The notes beneath the pieces were generated by a model. It was not told where the DNA came from. It did no database searches and saw nothing but the letters and a program-made list of their open reading frames with translations. From the NCBI RefSeq assembly GCF_023156585.1, contig NZ_JALNMI010000001.1:744001-808000 (forward strand): DNA of 64,000 bases, in the 5' to 3' direction. Below, piece by piece: positions 2,948 through 44,080 of this stretch. Both the position numbers and the translations under genes were made by a program. The stretch comes from Subsaxibacter sp. CAU 1640. Lineage in GTDB: Bacteria > Bacteroidota > Bacteroidia > Flavobacteriales > Flavobacteriaceae. Each line of letters opens with the position of its first letter. Positions within the stretch are counted from its first letter, which is position 1.

Positions 2948-5900
2948 ATGACAAAAAATCTACTTTGTATCCTCATGTTTTTGAGTGTTACAGTGTCATT
3001 TTCGCAAAAAGCGAATTTTTGGCAAAAGTCCCAAGTCAACAGTTCCCGTGTAAAGGTTGACAAAAAAAATCTACCCCTAAATCAGACCTATAGTTTAAAC
3101 ATCGAGGGTCTAAAACAAGTGTTGGAATTAGCTCCTGAAAGGAGCTCAAATTCTAAATCGTCAAATGTTATTGTATCGTTTCCAAATCCCGATGGGCAAA
3201 TGGAACGCTTCAGAATCATCGAGGCTTCCGTAATGGATGCTGAACTTCAGGCAAGATATCCTGAAATTAGATCATATGCTGGGCAAGGGGTCGACGATCC
3301 TACTGCTGTGATTCGCTTTAGCATTTCTCCATTGGGTTTTCAAAGTATGAGGTTGTCAGCTAATCAGCCAGCTTCGTTCATTGAACCAATAACTCAAGAT
3401 TTGACAAGTTACTCTGTTTATAAAAGAGCCGATATTAGAACTGCTTATAATGATTTTGAGTGTAAAGTAACCGATGTTATGAACAAGAACATTAATGGTG
3501 TAGCTATGCGAAATGCAGATGATGGTGTGTTGAGACGTTACCGATTGGCAATGTCGGTTACTGGAGAATACACACAATATTTCGGTGGAACCAAAGCTTT
3601 GGCTCTTTCAGCGATTAATGCCACTATGACTCGTGTTAACGGTGTATTTGAAAATGATTTCAATGTAACAATGGTGCTTATTTCAAATACAGATGCAGTT
3701 ATTTATACAAGTGCCAGTTCTGATCCATATAGTTCAAATGATTCTCAATGGAACAGTCAGTTGCAAAGCACTTTGAATAGCGTTATCGGCAATTCCAACT
3801 ATGACATCGGACATTTGATGGGTGCAACCGGTAATAATGGAAACGCCGGTTGTATTGGCTGCGTTTGTGTAACTAATCAAAAAGGTAGCGGCTATACTAC
3901 CAGTACTGTTCCAACAGGAGATAATTTCGATATTGATTTTGTGGCACACGAAATGGGACATCAGTTTGGTGCAAACCACACTTGGACGTTCAATGGAAAC
4001 GAAGGCACCGACGTGCAAATGGAGCCTGGTTCGGGATCAACTATTATGGGCTATGCAGGTATCACTGGAGCAACGTACGATGTTCAAGCTCACAGTGACC
4101 CTTACTTCCATGCAATATCTATAGAGCAAGTAACTGATTATGTAAAAACTACTAGTTGCCAAACAAACATTAGCACAGGTAATGCAGCACCAACAGCAAA
4201 TGCTGGTTCTAATTACACAATACCTAAAGGAACACCTTTTGTGCTAACAGGGTCTGGTTCTGATGCCAATTCTAGTGACGTTCTAACCTATTGTTGGGAA
4301 CAAATTGATGAGAATAATGCCGTTACAAAATTGCCAAGCACCACTGCCACTGCTGGTGTGGCCTTTAGATCTTATTCGCCTTCAACAGATACTAAACGTT
4401 ATTTTCCAAATCTGGCAACCATAAAGGCAGGTGCAACTTCATGGAAATGGGAAGCCGTGCCAAATGTTGCAAGGACGTTGAATTTTAGATTGACTGTTCG
4501 TGATAACAAAGCCGGTGGGGCTAGCAACAAAAGTGATGATACTGTAATCACTGTTAATGGAACTGCAGGGCCTTTTGTAGTTAATTCACCAAACACTAAC
4601 GTGACTTGGAATGCTGGAACTACGCAAACGGTTACTTGGAGTGTTGCTGGAACCACTGGAAATGGCGTGAATGCTGCCAATGTAGATATTCTTTTATCGA
4701 CAGATGGCGGAAACACATATCCAATCACTATTCTTGCAAATACTCCAAATGACGGTTCACAAGCCATTACAGTTCCCAACAATCCGGGAAGTCAAAACCG
4801 CATAATGGTTAAAGGCTCTAACCACATCTTTTTTGACATTTCAAATACCAATTTTACAATTGGCGGAGCGGTCTCTTGTACAGCTACAGTTCCAACAGGG
4901 TTGTCGGCCTCTAATATTGGCTCATCAACGGCTACTTTAAATTGGAATTCGGTAACAGGTGCAACCTACGATTTACAGTATCGCATTGTTGGAACATCAA
5001 CTTGGACAACAGTTGCTGTCACTGGAACTTCTACTAATTTGACGGGGCTAACAGCATCAACACAATATGAAGCACAAGTAAGAAGCAAATGTTCTGGAGG
5101 AAGCAATTCGGCTTACAGTAGTTCTGTAAATTTCACTACTACAGCCGTTCAATTGAATTATTGTACCTCTGCAAGTACCAATACCAATGACGAGTATATT
5201 GGTAGGGTTCAGCTAAACACTATCAACAATCCTTCTGGCGCTCAATTCTATTCAGATTTTACGTCTATTTCGACTAATTTATCGAAAGGAACTCAATACA
5301 CCATCACATTAACACCTACTTGGACGGGAACGGTTTATAATGAAGGTTATTCGGTTTGGATTGATTATAACAGAGATGGTGATTTTGATGATTCAGGTGA
5401 ACAAGTTTGGACAAGAGCTGCAACCAATACAACACCAGTAAGTGGAAGTTTCACAGTGCCTACAGGTGCTACAACAGGTGCAACTCGAATGAGAGTTTCA
5501 ATGAAATACAACGCCATTCCAACAGCTTGTGAAACATTTCAGTATGGCGAAGTTGAAGATTATACTGTTAACATCCAAGGAGCAGCGCCTGACACTACAG
5601 CGCCGTCAACACCAACCAATTTAACCGCAAGTGGAACAACCCAGACCACCACAAATTTGTCTTGGACGGCTTCCACTGATAACGTAGCCGTGACAGGATA
5701 CGACGTGTATCAGGCTTCTACTGTAATAGCGACCGTGACTGGTACAACTTACCAAGTAACAGGTTTGTCACCAAATACAGCTTATTCATTCAGGGTAAGA
5801 GCAAAAGATGCAGCAGGCAATATTTCCGGATATAGCAACACAGTAAACGTTACCACATTGTCTAATTCGGTCACCTATTGCACTTCTCAAGGAAACAATA

Positions 5901-13548: not shown

Positions 13549-13674
13549 AATAGGAGTTTAGTTGAATAAATATAGTAAATAATTGTGTTAGCGATTGAAG
13601 CGGCATCCTTTTTTGAAAAAAAAGATATAGCGAAAAGCGCGACGGTTTTTTAATAAAAACCGAACACCATAATA

Positions 13675-15823: not shown

Positions 15824-16810
15824 CTATAAAAGTTTCACAACATCTTTTGCAAAATAACTCGCGATAATATCTGCGCCTGCACGTTTGATGGCTGTTACCT
15901 GTTCCATCATCACGGCATCGTGGTCGAGCCATCCTTTTTCGGCAGCCGCCTTCAGCATCGCGTACTCACCAGAAACTTGATAGACCGCCACCGGAACATC
16001 AACAGCATTTTTGATTTCTCGAACAATATCCAAATAACACAAACCTGGCTTTACCATCACGATATCTGCACCTTCGTCAATGTCCATTTCGGTTTCTCGA
16101 ATGGCTTCGATGCGATTCGCATAATCCATTTGATAGGTTTTTTTGTCTTTGGGAATGTCTTTCATATCGACTGGCGCCGAATCCAAAGCATCACGAAAAG
16201 GTCCATAAAATGCCGAAGCATATTTGGCAGAATAGCTCATAATCCCTGTATTGATATACCCTTCCTCTTCCAAAGCTTCTCGAATGGTCAGAATTCGGCC
16301 ATCCATCATATCACTTGGTGCCACAAAATCGGCACCAGCTTTTGCGTGCGACAAACTCATTTCTGCCAAAATATTCGCTGTCTCGTCATTAACTATCAAT
16401 CCGTTTTGAATAATGCCATCGTGTCCGTAAGACGAATAAGGGTCTAAAGCCACATCTGTCATCACCAACATATCAGGGCAGGCATTTTTCACGGTCTTGA
16501 TGGCGCGCTGCATCAATCCATTAGGATTTAAAGCTTCGGTGCCTTTGTTGTCTTTGAGATTGTCAGGTACTTTTACGAACAATAACACCGACTTCAACCC
16601 AAGGTTCCAAAGTTCCTTGACTTCCTTTTCCAATAAATCGAGACTATATCGGAAATAATTGGGCATAGAAGCGATTTCTTCCTTTACGTTTTTGCCTTCC
16701 ACCACAAACAATGGCACTAAAAAATCGTTTGGCGTAATGATAGTTTCCCTGACCAAAGAGCGAATGCTTTCGTTGGTGCGTAGGCGACGGTTTCTTCTGT
16801 ATGGATACAT
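15824..16810 (-). CDS. hemB: Delta-aminolevulinic acid dehydratase (porphobilinogen synthase)
   Basis: Condenses two 5-aminolevulinates to porphobilinogen, the second committed step of tetrapyrrole synthesis. It is 328 aa. Both Schiff-base lysines are in their motifs: YSAKYASAFYGP and IVMVKPGL. The metal and substrate region TDVALDPYSSYGHDG is present; it carries Asp rather than the Cys triad, which marks the Mg-dependent, not Zn-dependent, form. It is the last hem gene of the minus-strand haem operon, but is cut off from hemF by a four-helix-bundle cassette. The left heptamer array of that cassette ends 3 bases before the hemB ATG and occupies its ribosome-binding region. Confidence 0.97.
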   Translation of the reverse strand: MYPYRRNRRLRTNESIRSLVRETIITPNDFLVPLFVVEGKNVKEEIASMPNYFRYSLDLLEKEVKELWNLGLKSVLLFVKVPDNLKDNKGTEALNPNGLMQRAIKTVKNACPDMLVMTDVALDPYSSYGHDGIIQNGLIVNDETANILAEMSLSHAKAGADFVAPSDMMDGRILTIREALEEEGYINTGIMSYSAKYASAFYGPFRDALDSAPVDMKDIPKDKKTYQMDYANRIEAIRETEMDIDEGADIVMVKPGLCYLDIVREIKNAVDVPVAVYQVSGEYAMLKAAAEKGWLDHDAVMMEQVTAIKRAGADIIASYFAKDVVKLL

Positions 16811-16813
16811 AAT

Positions 16814-16841
16814 TTTAGTTTACTGTTTACGGTTCACAGTT
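16814..16841 (-). repeat. Left heptamer array of four-helix-bundle cassette 1
   Basis: Read on the minus strand (away from the small gene) there are four contiguous 7-base units of the form AACNNNN: AACTGTG (16835-16841), AACCGTA (16828-16834), AACAGTA (16821-16827) and a decayed AACTAAA (16814-16820). The array begins inside the TAA stop (16840-16842) of the four-helix gene and ends 3 bases before the hemB start codon. It is inverted with respect to the array at 17216-17247. Confidence 0.8.
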
Positions 16842-17199
16842 ATAAGGTTTCAGAGATTTTCTTTATTAAGGATGCTAGCATTTTTTTAATTTCGATAATT
16901 TGAGATGATAATTTTTCATACTTAAATTCATCAATATATTTTAAATCTTTGGAGACCAAAATGAGATATTCCATTTCGTGGGCAGAACCCGATGCGATGT
17001 AAAGAAAGCGAATTAATTCTTTTTGAGTCTCTCTACCACAACCTTCAGCAATATTAGTAGGAATAGAAATCACAGATCTGTTTATTTGTGATATCAGATT
17101 GAACTGTTCTTTTTTAGGAAAATTTTCAGTTAATGAATATAGCTCTAGCACAAGTAGATGTGCTTTTTGCCAAACCTTATATTTCCTGTAATCAATCAT
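16840..17199 (-). CDS. Four-helix-bundle protein, S23/IVP family (cassette 1)
   Basis: Small helical protein of 119 aa of the family found in 23S rRNA intervening sequences (TIGR02436, 'S23' or IVP) and related to the Avd accessory protein of diversity-generating retroelements. The family core is visible: W at 10, FPKKEQF, LISQINRSVISIPTNIAEG at 35-53, then FLYIASGSAHEMEYL. Proteins of this group form pentameric barrels and bind nucleic acid through a basic face. No reverse transcriptase, variable repeat or rRNA is nearby. The gene sits between hemF and hemB inside the haem operon, bracketed by inverted arrays of 7-base repeats (16814-16841 and 17216-17247), which suggests a mobile or formerly mobile unit. 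The function is unknown. Confidence 0.9.
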   Translation of the reverse strand: MIDYRKYKVWQKAHLLVLELYSLTENFPKKEQFNLISQINRSVISIPTNIAEGCGRETQKELIRFLYIASGSAHEMEYLILVSKDLKYIDEFKYEKLSSQIIEIKKMLASLIKKISETL

Positions 17200-17215
17200 T
17201 TTCTAAAGATTTTTG

Positions 17216-17247
17216 TTCTGTAAACAGTTAACCGTTAACTGCCAACC
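17216..17247 (+). repeat. Right heptamer array of four-helix-bundle cassette 1
   Basis: Read on the plus strand (away from the small gene) the units are a decayed TTCTGTA (17216-17222), then AACAGTT (17223-17229), AACCGTT (17230-17236), AACTGCC (17237-17243) and AACC (17244-17247). The period is exactly 7. The TAA stop of hemF (17228-17230) falls inside this array, so the last four HemF residues (AVNG) are array-encoded. Confidence 0.8.
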
Positions 17248-18142
17248 AATTTATAGGCTTTCTCAACACTTCAATCAACTTTTCCTCTTCACTCCCTTTT
17301 TCAGGTTGATGGTCGTATCTCCATTGCACGTGAGGAGGCAAACTCATCAATATGCTTTCGATGCGTCCATTGGTTTTGAGTCCGAACAAGGTGCCTTTAT
17401 CGTGCACCAAATTGAATTCCACATAACGTCCACGACGGATTTCTTGCCAGTCTCTTTGTTCTTTTGAATACGATACATCTTTTCGTTTTTCCACAATCGG
17501 GACATAACATTCCAAGAAACTGTTGCCAACTTCCGTTACAAAAGCATACCATTGCTCCATCGACATCTCGTCGTTTGCTTTACAATAGTCGAAAAACAAA
17601 CCACCAATACCGCGAGCTTCGTTGCGATGGGCATTCCAAAAGTAGTCATCGCATTTTTGCTTGTAGTCTTTATAAAAATCTGGATGATGCTTATCGCAAG
17701 CCGTTTTACAAACTTGGTGAAAATGTTTGGCATCTTCTTCAAACAGATAATAAGGCGTTAAATCTTGTCCGCCACCGAACCAGGAATCGACAATGGTTCC
17801 ATTTTTATCATACATTTCGAAATAGCGCCAATTAGCGTGAACCGTTGGCACCATCGGGTTCTTCGGATGGAGCACCAAACTCAAACCGCAAGCAAAAAAA
17901 TCAGCATCCTTCACTCCAAAATACTGTTGCATACTTTGCGGAAGTTCGCCGTGAACTGCAGAAATATTGACACCACCTTTTTCGAAGACAGCGCCATTTT
18001 CTATCACTCTTGTGCGTCCGCCACCGCCTTCAGGACGTTTCCAAAGGTCTTCCTTGAAAGTTGCTTCACCATCAATTTCCTCCAATTTTGAAGTGATTTG
18101 ATTCTGCAGATTTTGAATATATTGATAGAATTTATCTTTCAT
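17228..18142 (-). CDS. hemF: Oxygen-dependent coproporphyrinogen III oxidase
   Basis: Cytoplasmic enzyme that decarboxylates two propionates of coproporphyrinogen III to vinyls with O2, giving protoporphyrinogen IX. It is 304 aa, normal for HemF. Conserved stretches include RPEGGGGRTRVIENGAVFEK, NWRYFE, the WFGGGQDLTPYY signature, and RGRYVEFNLVHDKGT. No oxygen-independent HemN is in the window, so the pathway as seen is aerobic. Its start overlaps the preceding GNAT gene by 11 bases. The stop codon lies in a heptamer repeat, so the C-terminal four residues are probably a by-product of the cassette insertion. Confidence 0.97.
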   Translation of the reverse strand: MKDKFYQYIQNLQNQITSKLEEIDGEATFKEDLWKRPEGGGGRTRVIENGAVFEKGGVNISAVHGELPQSMQQYFGVKDADFFACGLSLVLHPKNPMVPTVHANWRYFEMYDKNGTIVDSWFGGGQDLTPYYLFEEDAKHFHQVCKTACDKHHPDFYKDYKQKCDDYFWNAHRNEARGIGGLFFDYCKANDEMSMEQWYAFVTEVGNSFLECYVPIVEKRKDVSYSKEQRDWQEIRRGRYVEFNLVHDKGTLFGLKTNGRIESILMSLPPHVQWRYDHQPEKGSEEEKLIEVLRKPINWLAVNG

Positions 18143-18671
18143 TTGTCAATTCGTAAAGTTCCATATCTAATGGAGATTCATTTAAGGGCGTAAACTCTTT
18201 CGGCAAGGTTTCTTTCCAGACAAATCCAGAATTCAAGGCAACGTTCACACTGCTTAAATTGCTTTTGTGGGAAATGATTTGAAGCGTTTTTAAACCCAAT
18301 TCTTCAATGGCATATTGAGACGTCGCTTTGATGGCTTCGCTCATCAACCCCTTTCCTTTGGCACGTTTTCCGATACAATAAGCAAATTCACCTTGTTTTG
18401 CGTCCCAATCGATATTTTTAAGAATCACTAAACCAATAATGTTGATGGCATATCGGTCTTTTATTGTAAATACAAACTCCGATTTAGCTTCTGCAGTTGC
18501 CATTTTCCCTTTGATATAGCTTCGTGTACTCTCTAGAGTGCGATTGGCAGCGAGGGTTTTTGGCAAAAATCGAATGAAACGTTCGGTATTGGAAACCAGC
18601 AACTTGTTCAGTTGTAGCGCATCATCTGGTTTGAGGTGTTGAATGCATATTTGATTTGAACTATGCACCAT
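18132..18671 (-). CDS. GNAT family N-acetyltransferase (RimJ/RimL-like)
   Basis: Acetyl-CoA-dependent N-acetyltransferase of 179 aa. The core fold is recognised by FVFTIKDRYAINIIGLVILKNIDW (beta2-beta3, here in part), the acetyl-CoA loop with GKRAKGKGLMSEAIKA (a Q/RxxGxG/A-like turn), and LKTLQIISHKSNLSSVNVALNSGF (motif B). This pattern is that of RimJ/RimL proteins, which acetylate N-termini of ribosomal proteins or small molecules; the substrate is not known. It overlaps hemF by 11 bases and the EI24-like gene by 11 bases, so it is firmly part of the haem operon without an obvious role in it. Confidence 0.88.
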   Translation of the reverse strand: MVHSSNQICIQHLKPDDALQLNKLLVSNTERFIRFLPKTLAANRTLESTRSYIKGKMATAEAKSEFVFTIKDRYAINIIGLVILKNIDWDAKQGEFAYCIGKRAKGKGLMSEAIKATSQYAIEELGLKTLQIISHKSNLSSVNVALNSGFVWKETLPKEFTPLNESPLDMELYELTNER

Positions 18672-30577: not shown

Positions 30578-31126
30578 ATGGAATACTATAACTACATTAA
30601 ATCGTTTCATCTCATTTTTGTGATCACTTGGTTTGCAGGCTTGTTCTACATTCCACGCTTGTTTGTGTATCAAATTGAAGCGTTCCATAAACCATCACCA
30701 GAAAAGGAAATTCTCGGAAAACAGTTAAAGTTGATGGCAAAACGTCTTTGGAACATCATTACATGGCCTTCTGCAATTCTCGCAACGATTTTTGCCATTT
30801 GGCTATTGATTTTACAACCGTTTTGGTTACAACAAGGTTGGATGCACATGAAATTGACATTCGTAGTATTGCTTATCATTTATCACTTAAAGACACATCA
30901 GTTTTATAAGCAATTGCAGCGCGATGAGGTCAAAAAGACATCAAATTTTATGCGAGTTTGGAACGAAGGTGCGACCTTCATTTTGTTTTCTGTAGTGTTC
31001 TTGGTCATTCTCAAAAATGCTATCAATTGGGTGTTTGGCGTTATTGGTATCATTGTTTTGGGAATTCTGTTAACCTTGGGATTCAAGATTTATAAAAACA
31101 TCAGGAATAGAAATCCCGAAGATTAA
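30578..31126 (+). CDS. hemJ: Protoporphyrinogen IX oxidase, HemJ type
   Basis: Membrane protein of the UPF0093 / CopD-like family, 182 aa, with about four to five helices. The first helix carries the conserved His (His11, SFHLIFVITWFAGLFYIPRL), followed by the RLFVYQ turn. The second conserved site is WMHMKL with the essential Lys. HemJ oxidizes protoporphyrinogen IX to protoporphyrin IX and binds a b-type haem. It fills the gap between HemF and HemH, since no HemG or HemY is present in the window. A somewhat longer C-terminus (a last helix plus a charged tail) is present. Confidence 0.9.
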   Translation: MEYYNYIKSFHLIFVITWFAGLFYIPRLFVYQIEAFHKPSPEKEILGKQLKLMAKRLWNIITWPSAILATIFAIWLLILQPFWLQQGWMHMKLTFVVLLIIYHLKTHQFYKQLQRDEVKKTSNFMRVWNEGATFILFSVVFLVILKNAINWVFGVIGIIVLGILLTLGFKIYKNIRNRNPED

Positions 31127-31187
31127 AAATTCCAAAACACAAATTCCAAAACATACTAAAAATGGATAGTTGGAATTTGGAATTTTG
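31127..31187. repeat. Heptamer inverted repeat without a protein gene (downstream of hemJ)
   Basis: It begins with the base after the hemJ stop. The left arm is two 14-base units, AAATTCCAAAACAC (31127-31140) and AAATTCCAAAACAT (31141-31154). After 15 bases the right arm is TTGGAAT twice (31170-31183) and TTTG. Nine bases, AAATTCCAA (31141-31149) and TTGGAATTT (31170-31178), pair perfectly. Period 7 or 14 and inverted layout match the cassette flanks, but no gene lies inside. It may also act as a terminator for hemJ. Confidence 0.65.
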
Positions 31188-43615: not shown

Positions 43616-43616
43616 T

Positions 43617-43633
43617 AGAGGTTAGAGGTTAGA
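43617..43633 (-). repeat. Left heptamer array of four-helix-bundle cassette 2
   Basis: Minus strand reads AACCTCT twice (complement of 43624-43630 and 43617-43623), after a partial unit up to 43633. It encodes the last residues and the TAA stop (43622-43624) of the four-helix gene and stops one base before the TTG start codon of the permease. Inverted relative to the array at 44013-44080. Confidence 0.75.
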
Positions 43634-43999
43634 TGATTTCTGTTTTAAGTGCTTTTGCAGACTCGTAATCATTTTTGAAAGTTCGACCAATTTTTGTCTT
43701 ATTTCAATATTTTTATCAGCAGTTATGTAGTTTTGTCTCAAGGAAATTGTTGAACAAACTACACATTCATTTACAGAATCTAAAGCCATCTGAAGAAAAC
43801 GATTGAATTGCTTATCAGTATCCGATGAGCCTTCTGCTATATTAAGTGCAATAGATATTGATGCTCGTATGAATTGAGATGCAAGCGTAAAGCGTTCACT
43901 GTTTGGAAAGTTTTCACAAACTCTATAGGTTAAATCAACAAAATCCAACGCTTTGTTGTAAACCTTTAGGTCTTCAAATTTAAATTTGTACGTTTCCAT
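43622..43999 (-). CDS. Four-helix-bundle protein, S23/IVP family (cassette 2)
   Basis: Protein of 125 aa of the same family as the one at 16840-17199. Shared motifs are FPNSERFTLASQFIRAS, SIALNIAEGSSD and FLQMALDSVNE. Identity between the two is clear only in these core segments, so they are old relatives and not recent copies. It lies between the ATPase and permease genes of a metal ABC operon, flanked by inverted heptamer arrays. Its own stop codon falls in the left array. A role in metal transport is unlikely; the position is better explained by insertion. Nucleic-acid binding is inferred from the family. Confidence 0.9.
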   Translation of the reverse strand: METYKFKFEDLKVYNKALDFVDLTYRVCENFPNSERFTLASQFIRASISIALNIAEGSSDTDKQFNRFLQMALDSVNECVVCSTISLRQNYITADKNIEIRQKLVELSKMITSLQKHLKQKSSNL

Positions 44000-44012: not shown

Positions 44013-44080
44013 ACTAACCACTAACCACTAACCACTAACCACTAACCACTAACCACTAACCACTAACCACTAACCACTAA
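44013..44080 (+). repeat. Right heptamer array of cassette 2: nine perfect ACTAACC units
   Basis: ACTAACC is repeated nine times without error (44013-44075) and followed by a tenth partial unit ACTAA. The array ends exactly where the stop codon of the ABC ATPase gene begins (44081-44083). It starts 13 bases before the four-helix start codon on the minus strand, so it forms the whole leader of that gene. A perfect array of this length is prone to slippage and should vary between isolates. Confidence 0.95.

Follow-up and report, generated by a model that had tools for sequence, protein, structure and literature searches.

The small gene unit that splits hemF from hemB in Subsaxibacter sp. CAU 1640 is best explained, though with only a modest margin of confidence, as one copy of a widespread family of mobile S23 cassettes resembling the intervening sequences (IVS) of 23S rRNA. 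The members share the layout of a heptamer array, an S23/IVP gene and an inverted heptamer array, together roughly 400–450 bp. Their arms are matched to each other and mostly private to each cassette, they are biased towards the sense orientation, they are present or absent in one piece at plasmid sites, and relatives have gene-less and decayed derivatives at these sites. The unit's behaviour is that of a mobile or removable cassette; how it is mobilised, and what the S23 protein does, are inferred. S23 genes are, according to PMC4990558, without a known function, and the solved structures related to them by sequence are 2gsc and 2rld.

Within the window (the whole stretch of 64,000 nucleotides that was analysed), cassette 1 carries a gene for an S23/IVP four-helix-bundle protein of 119 aa (16840..17199, minus strand; PF05635, TIGR02436), placed between hemF (17228-18142, minus strand, PF01218) and hemB (15824-16810, minus strand, PF00490). 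This protein, P0001, matches PF05635 with 135.8 bits (cut-off 33.8, E=8e-40) and TIGR02436 with 130.6 bits (cut-off 24; home genome G000, G000:C1:760855-761175). The 3' heptamer array (16814..16841, minus strand) lies between the S23 stop codon and the hemB start and reads TTTAGTT-TACTGTT-TACGGTT-CACAGTT in plus-strand letters, giving the minus-strand units AACTGTG, AACCGTA, AACAGTA and AACTAAA; the S23 stop codon (16840-16842) is overlapped by the innermost unit of this left array. The 5' array (17223..17247, plus strand), inverted with respect to the 3' array, reads AACAGTT-AACCGTT-AACTGCC-AACC and contains the hemF stop codon (17228-17230). The significance of the flanks of both window cassettes was judged against dinucleotide shuffles of 75-nt flanks, 2000 each. 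Each flank of cassette 1 scores 15/21 for matches at lag 7 (p=0.0020 on the 5' side of the gene, p=0.0010 on the 3' side), and the inverted-repeat score of 14 has p=0.0020. A predicted minimum free energy (MFE) fold of the cassette RNA contains 24 arm-arm pairs, which is a prediction only. A preliminary description had claimed the first three heptamers of each array as listed here, a 119-aa S23/IVP-type gene splitting hemF from hemB, and inverted arrays on both flanks; the first claim held on direct reading, the second on the profile matches to PF05635, PF01218 and PF00490, and the third, for cassette 1, on the shuffle p-values.

It had also proposed that a second cassette shares this design, which held for the period on both sides; the inverted-repeat score alone was not significant in dinucleotide shuffles (p=0.93). 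The S23/IVP gene of cassette 2 encodes 125 aa (43622..43999, minus strand; PF05635 E=1.6e-29, TIGR02436 97.5 bits). Its 5' array (44013..44080, plus strand) is a perfect ACTAACC x9.7 (TRF, 100% matches; lag-7 21/21, a score reached in 0/2000 shuffles) and ends where the upstream ABC-transporter gene has its stop codon, and its 3' array (43616..43633, minus strand; TRF) is TAGAGGT x2.6 (lag-7 13/21, p=0.028). The heptamers of the two window cassettes differ. In each unit the PF05635 gene is the sole ORF of gene length, and the cassette unit contains no transposase or other nuclease gene. A genome search found six S23 genes in the home genome, five of which have period-7 arrays; the sixth (L001), whose arms are inverted copies (p=0.0095), shows no period-7 signal and has its best lag at 9. 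The window also holds a gene-less inverted heptamer array at 31127..31187 (strand not given; AAATTCC AAAACAC AAATTCC ... TTGGAAT TTGGAAT; TRF 31127-31153 and 31170-31185), which begins directly after the stop codon of the ORF at 30578-31126. By eye, its units look like those of an S23 cassette in another genome (L266, genome G010). Elsewhere in the window, a Flavo-1 sRNA (RF01705) was matched at 13583-13648 on the plus strand with 53 bits.

The period of seven is a general property of S23 flanks. S23 genes turned up in 89 of the 120 family genomes sampled, with a maximum of 17 per genome. For the study of flanks, the six genes of the home genome were joined by 23 loci of three congeners, 23 of the 30 loci taken from two family members rich in S23, and the 80 best among 381 relatives from named genomes, whose record labels include Planctomycetota, Poribacteria, Chloroflexi, Deltaproteobacteria, a cyanobacterium (Plectonema) and Kuenenia. 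The best lag-7 match averages 14.56/21 on the 5' side (n=102) and 13.83/21 on the 3' side (n=101), against means of 8.7-9.8 for the other lags from 4 to 12 at S23 flanks and a lag-7 background of 9.04 in 3622 windows distant from the gene. When lags 5-13 were compared across several phyla, lag 7 was the sole best in 105 of 124 S23 genes and tied in 5, and 14 cassettes had a best period of 6, 8, 9 or 12. A lag-7 score of at least 14/21 is reached on one or more flanks in 104/124 cassettes and on both in 53/124, compared with 5.3% and 0.27% of control window pairs (n=3014). At one locus (L042, about 3000-3450) an apparent tandem duplication was seen, the 3' flank of one S23 gene adjoining the start of a second.

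The arms of a cassette match their own partner and, on average, not those of other cassettes in the same genome. Across five genomes, the mean inverted-repeat scores for own and other arms are 19.0/12.0 (6 cassettes), 18.6/10.1 (10), 17.1/10.0 (7), 16.3/9.6 (15) and 17.0/9.2 (8), and the own arm is the best or tied best in 3/6, 8/10, 6/7, 12/15 and 7/8, for a total of 36/46. The predicted RNA duplex is -36.4 kcal/mol between own arms and -24.5 when arms are swapped, with the own arm lowest in 32 of 46 rows. In whole-cassette MFE predictions there are 20.8 arm-arm pairs in the native cassette and 9.3 with a swapped arm, and at least 12 such pairs are predicted in 34/46 native and 34/92 swapped folds. 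The order of variant units is mirrored only modestly: in register it scores 13.66 against 12.57 when permuted (n=64; better in 42, worse in 19; Wilcoxon p=3.6e-5), and the mean per-cassette p is 0.49. In a mixed set of 100, only 19 cassettes score strictly highest with their own partner, because the clade of P0001-like proteins has a common heptamer theme. A weaker match is seen among 32 orthologues located at hemB (own/other 13.75/11.14, Wilcoxon p=0.0022; own strictly best in 4 rows). Among these, own arms beat swapped arms in 157 pairs and lose in 42 at 60-70% S23 identity; no own-arm advantage is found at 70-80% identity (better 29, worse 36) or in the remaining class above 70% (better 11, worse 14).

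Cassettes sit in short gaps and nearly always read with their neighbours. Orientation was assigned by a mechanical ORF rule in which an ORF of at least 100 aa counts as a neighbour. Of 125 cassettes, 111 run in the same direction as the genes on both sides, 3 run against both, 6 have a mixed arrangement and 5 had no neighbour, so that 111 of 114 cassettes between co-directional genes are in sense. The sense rows are 44 + 37 + 32 = 113, minus two counted in both the hemB and the six-genome sets. The 32 hemB orthologues are all sense and are not independent; when they are left out, 79 are sense and 3 antisense (79/82), and the six-genome paralogue set is 44/44 sense. The background is 290 of 347 other adjacent gene pairs co-directional. 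One plasmid cassette (L383) is antisense to both its neighbours. Median gaps are only 46 nt upstream and 41.5 nt downstream of the S23 gene, so the arrays essentially fill the intergenic space, and some upstream genes terminate within the array. Annotated records place S23 genes in cas and conjugation operons of plasmids. Two were observed within CRISPR-Cas operons: between cas10/cmr2 and cmr3 in Picosynechococcus PCC 7003 (L387 1471-1827), and between cas6 and cas4 in Pseudanabaena galeata (L384 1501-1860).

At the hem locus the cassette is an old resident. Among 79 loci picked for similarity to P0001, 32 have the S23 relative directly upstream of hemB, and at these a lag-7 score of at least 14/21 is found on one or more flanks in 27, on both in 13 and on neither in 5. 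The identities of hemB and S23 correlate (Spearman 0.59), and the hemF-hemB cassette is for that reason considered old and largely vertical. hemB itself was found in 111 of 120 family genomes, and 30 hemB loci were read; the S23 gene of cassette 1 is absent from the other 29, three of which (L111, L118, L134) bear repeat-like scars as judged by eye. For P0001-like genes from non-Bacteroidota hosts, neither hemB nor hemF was reported in the flanks that were fetched.

Evidence that the cassette is gained or lost as a unit comes from plasmids, where ten distinct sites were fetched and alleles without the S23 gene were found at 7/7 of those tested. In one allele comparison, the cassette is present at the same site in Trichormus variabilis plasmid C and a Scytonema plasmid, and plasmids of Aulosira, Fremyella and Nostoc linckia (~97% identity) are without the S23 gene and both arrays. 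The 5-bp sequence GTAAT brackets the insert at this site and is single copy in the empty allele. Since that allele has no repeats, the arrays come with the S23 gene. Nostoc ATCC 53789 provides a reciprocal pair, pNsp_a and pNsp_c being occupied at adjacent junctions and each empty at the other's site, and further tested sites are in Nostoc edaphicum, Picosynechococcus PCC 7003, Calothrix brevissima and Aulosira plasmid 2. A target duplication of fixed length was sought at these seven plasmid sites and not found in the four that were readable: one has 5 bp, another 5 bp that is ambiguous, a third 3 bp, and the fourth no duplication and a loss of about 8 nt; the three remaining junctions could not be resolved to the base. 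Deletion between short direct repeats would yield the same empty allele. Derivatives were recognised by eye: at the Trichormus site, a gene-less inverted array in a Brasilonema plasmid and a gene relic in Nostoc C052_E, and at the N. edaphicum site a repeat-bearing stretch without the gene in Nostoc ATCC 53789. On the Nostoc N6 plasmid pNPM1 (L411 634-1200), an S23 gene was seen to be split by an insert ending in CTCCTGA-type repeats.

Two chromosomal junctions were compared among relatives. Their genes, which we take to be trpG, trpD, fadA and an acyl-CoA dehydrogenase gene, were recognised from translations with no profile run. Between trpG and trpD, G000 has a full cassette, its congener G001 a gene-less inverted array, and the congener G002 a relic of about 14 S23 codons; G016 has long gene-less arrays, several other genera have short clean junctions, and a trpD match was not found in a fourth congener, G003. 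Between fadA and the acyl-CoA dehydrogenase gene, one S23 clade is present in G001, G003, G008 and G009, a second clade with a different repeat is present in G002, G016 and G010, and G000 and others are without a cassette. This latter pattern is partly inherited, because G002 and G016 are mutually closest at the downstream gene (83%), and the pattern at the chromosomal sites as a whole requires more than one gain, loss or replacement. A Myroides pair (L062/L063) was considered as a recent copy and rejected, as the identity spans the whole overlap.

The heptamer core tracks the protein clade and not the host, across phyla. In the 5' arm of the P0001-like clade, AGC/AGT occurs in 31 of 37 arrays from non-Bacteroidota hosts (10.5 expected from shuffled units) and in 51 of 61 from Bacteroidota hosts (15.2 expected), compared with 20 of 56 (13.4 expected) for the other S23 clades of six surveyed genomes. 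As the repeat core tracks the protein, recognition of the heptamer by S23 is suggested; there are no binding data, and joint transfer of gene and repeat would also produce the pattern. A universal AG core for all heptamers was rejected: it is found in 37 of 60 arrays of the paralogue set, where 30.6 are expected, and only the P0001-like clade shows it clearly. A base skew is also seen, with G > C in 127/173 arrays and C > G in 29/173 when read in 5'-arm orientation. The idea that a period of seven serves to place stop codons in all frames was unsupported in the paralogue set, where 13, 11 and 14 arrays have TAA, TAG and TGA, against 14.2, 11.5 and 11.7 expected; in the full set, in which one clade is dominant, TAA occurs in 47 (32.9 expected) and TAG in 37 (28.6 expected). 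The S23 protein is under purifying selection: of seven orthologue pairs, six give a dN/dS of 0.05-0.11 and one is saturated; for cassette 1 against its orthologue L013 the value is 0.06.

Arrays without a gene are common. In 400 kb of G000 sampled without an S23 gene there are 6 strong arrays (17/21), which by extrapolation gives roughly 50 gene-less arrays in the home genome against its six cassettes. At the same threshold, with 200 kb sampled from each, four other S23-bearing genomes have 0, 2, 2 and 0, and four S23-free genomes 0, 0, 0 and 1. At 16/21, outside long ORFs, 21 arrays were found in 1200 kb of five S23-bearing genomes and 1 in 800 kb of the four S23-free genomes, with G000 alone supplying 12 of the 21; at 15/21 the counts are 34 vs 9, and with 19/28 they are 24 vs 4. 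The sole S23-like stretch in these samples, L212, contributes no array at 16/21. Among S23-bearing genomes array density did not track S23 number, with few arrays in G057 (13 S23 genes) and G102 (7). Patterns of the forms TTAGANN and GTTNACN each occur at more than one locus in G000, G001 and G002 and at none in G003, with up to 16 and 18 hits per genome against 0-3 for reversed-pattern controls, and none of the 24 loci of these arrays away from S23 cassettes has an S23 match. Three side observations may be recorded here. The S23-free genome G035 (L170-L179) has 36 period-9 arrays in 200 kb, far above the other sampled genomes. In the home genome, a run of GGTTGCAACAAATTATGGCAT-like units of about 30 bp by eye adjoins a gene-less heptamer array (L155, about 18012-18262). 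In a long gene-less array (L361 1472-1690, reverse strand), the heptamer shifts from GTTTACA through GTTTTCA, GTTGTCG and GTTGTTG to GTTGATG, and this stepwise change is possibly a record of heptamer drift.

Among known systems, the closest is the 23S rRNA IVS, of which the Coxiella example is 428 nt long, carries an S23 ORF, has a 28-bp terminal stem and is excised by RNase III (PMC4990558). The cassettes share with it the PF05635/TIGR02436 protein, a similar size, complementary ends around one ORF and a sporadic distribution; they differ in lying between protein genes and in having arms built for the most part of 7-bp tandem arrays, which as a rule are not shared between copies. No rRNA was found by Rfam in the 64-kb window, and cassette 1 does not lie in an rRNA gene. 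Tandem intergenic units of 7 bp are also a feature of the TAACTGA arrays known in Beggiatoaceae, cyanobacteria and five Bacteroidetes (MacGregor, 2015; PMC4679880); these are direct repeats of one heptamer, often near start codons, whereas the heptamers described here differ between cassettes and bracket a gene in inverted pairs. The same paper describes other heptamers in some Bacteroidetes intergenic regions, as well as relatives without arrays, and searching its main text for 'four helix', 'S23' or '23S' returned nothing. The Avd protein of diversity-generating retroelements (DGR), which PF05635 resembles (PMC10053308), is a distant relative, with bAvd (PF22296) scoring 34.7 bits for P0001 and 30.2 bits in a second match, both below the cut-off of 40. 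No reverse transcriptase was found among the six genes neighbouring the two window cassettes, the only ones scanned, which belong to haem, GNAT, CysZ-like and ABC-transporter families. By analogy, the REPIN/RAYT system (PMC3116915) likewise has one gene-bearing form and many gene-less inverted intergenic forms; the cassettes, unlike it, are without a Y1 (RAYT) transposase and have 7-bp arrays and no REP palindromes. Unlike an IS or MITE DNA transposon, the cassettes have inverted ends that are not conserved between copies.

In the open-access literature searched (titles and abstract starts), no paper was identified that links S23 genes to heptamer arrays. The preliminary description knew of no heptamer-bounded, intergenic form. 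Two outcomes that it had named as refuting a cassette were tested. For the first, the same gene at hemF-hemB in distant genera without repeats, 27 of the 32 hemB-located loci proved to be repeat-bearing and five not; for the second, the absence of a 7-base period from other family members, seven was the sole best lag in 105 of 124 and tied in five. The clean empty sites it had named as support were found at the seven tested plasmid sites and at two chromosomal junctions in relatives. Its inference of a mobile or domesticated cassette is supported with limits, namely the old hemB copy, the commonness of gene-less arrays, the variable duplications and the lack of any known mobilising enzyme. Both words apply, because the cassette at hemB is an old resident.

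The mechanism we propose is inferred from the anatomy of the cassettes and the 23S IVS precedent. Cassettes would enter and leave short gaps between operon genes, almost always in sense, and, having no promoter of their own, would be transcribed by read-through from the host operon, for which there are no expression data. In the operon RNA the complementary arms may fold into a long-range stem bracketing the S23 message, as the ends of the 23S IVS do, and RNase III or a similar enzyme may cut at this stem, although no processing data exist. The S23 oligomer may recognise the heptamer of its own clade and thereby act on the element through processing, protection or mobilisation; binding data are again lacking. 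The copy at hemF-hemB is an old resident, inherited largely vertically. The sense bias, the absence of conserved ends and the lack of a fixed duplication argue against an ordinary transposon. The sense bias would be explained if insertion took an RNA or co-transcriptional route, or if read-through expression were selected for.

The rival that survives best, and remains possible, is that hypermutable intergenic heptamer repeats arise independently, by slippage and hairpin template-switching in the manner of TAACTGA repeats, with S23 as a surviving passenger and arm matching as a mutational by-product. In its favour are the scatter of gene-less arrays from the same heptamer families across G000, G001 and G002, the occasional unit sizes of 6, 8, 9 or 12, the shrinking of the contrast between S23-bearing and S23-free genomes at 15/21 (34 in 1200 kb vs 9 in 800 kb), and the known occurrence of TAACTGA arrays in Beggiatoaceae, cyanobacteria and five Bacteroidetes (PMC4679880). 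Against it are the empty Trichormus-site allele without repeats, the contrast at 16/21 (1 in 800 kb S23-free vs 21 in 1200 kb S23-bearing), and the tracking of the heptamer core with protein clade across phyla. A second rival, which we regard as unlikely, is an immobile, vertically inherited operon gene with a repeat-based regulatory hairpin (an mRNA stabiliser or attenuator) controlling the haem genes. The position directly upstream of hemB in 32/79 loci, the correlated identities (Spearman 0.59) and the strong purifying selection are in its favour; against it are the other 29 family hemB loci read without a match to the cassette 1 S23, the lack of any reported hemB or hemF near P0001-like genes of non-Bacteroidota hosts, the S23 genes in plasmid cas and conjugation operons, and the one junction that holds two S23 clades with different repeats in relatives. 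A third rival, a MITE-like DNA element that carries S23 as cargo and is moved in trans by a conventional transposase, would fit the inverted ends, the gene-less derivatives and the 3-5-bp flanking duplications at some sites, and is likewise unlikely, as the ends differ between cassettes in one genome, the duplications are not fixed, and a sense bias of 111/114 is unexpected for DNA transposition without selection.

The preferred reading of a mobile, IVS-like cassette family can be extended to a bolder one, which we regard as possible but clearly less likely than not and for which there are no binding data. In this extension, S23 cassettes would be cross-phylum mobile elements at the RNA level that use an RNA or co-transcriptional step to enter operons, in sense and at stop/start junctions. 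The S23 oligomer would recognise the heptamer array of its clade, carried and rebuilt by the element on both sides, and would mobilise gene-less arrays in trans; the 23S rRNA IVS would be a specialised branch. The results suggest an undescribed family of tiny mobile elements. They tie S23 genes of unknown function to a repeat structure, to operon junctions and to empty and occupied alleles, and so provide a testable mobile-element hypothesis. They also offer an origin for puzzling intergenic heptamer arrays, and a natural series in which S23 protein clades are paired with repeat sequences.
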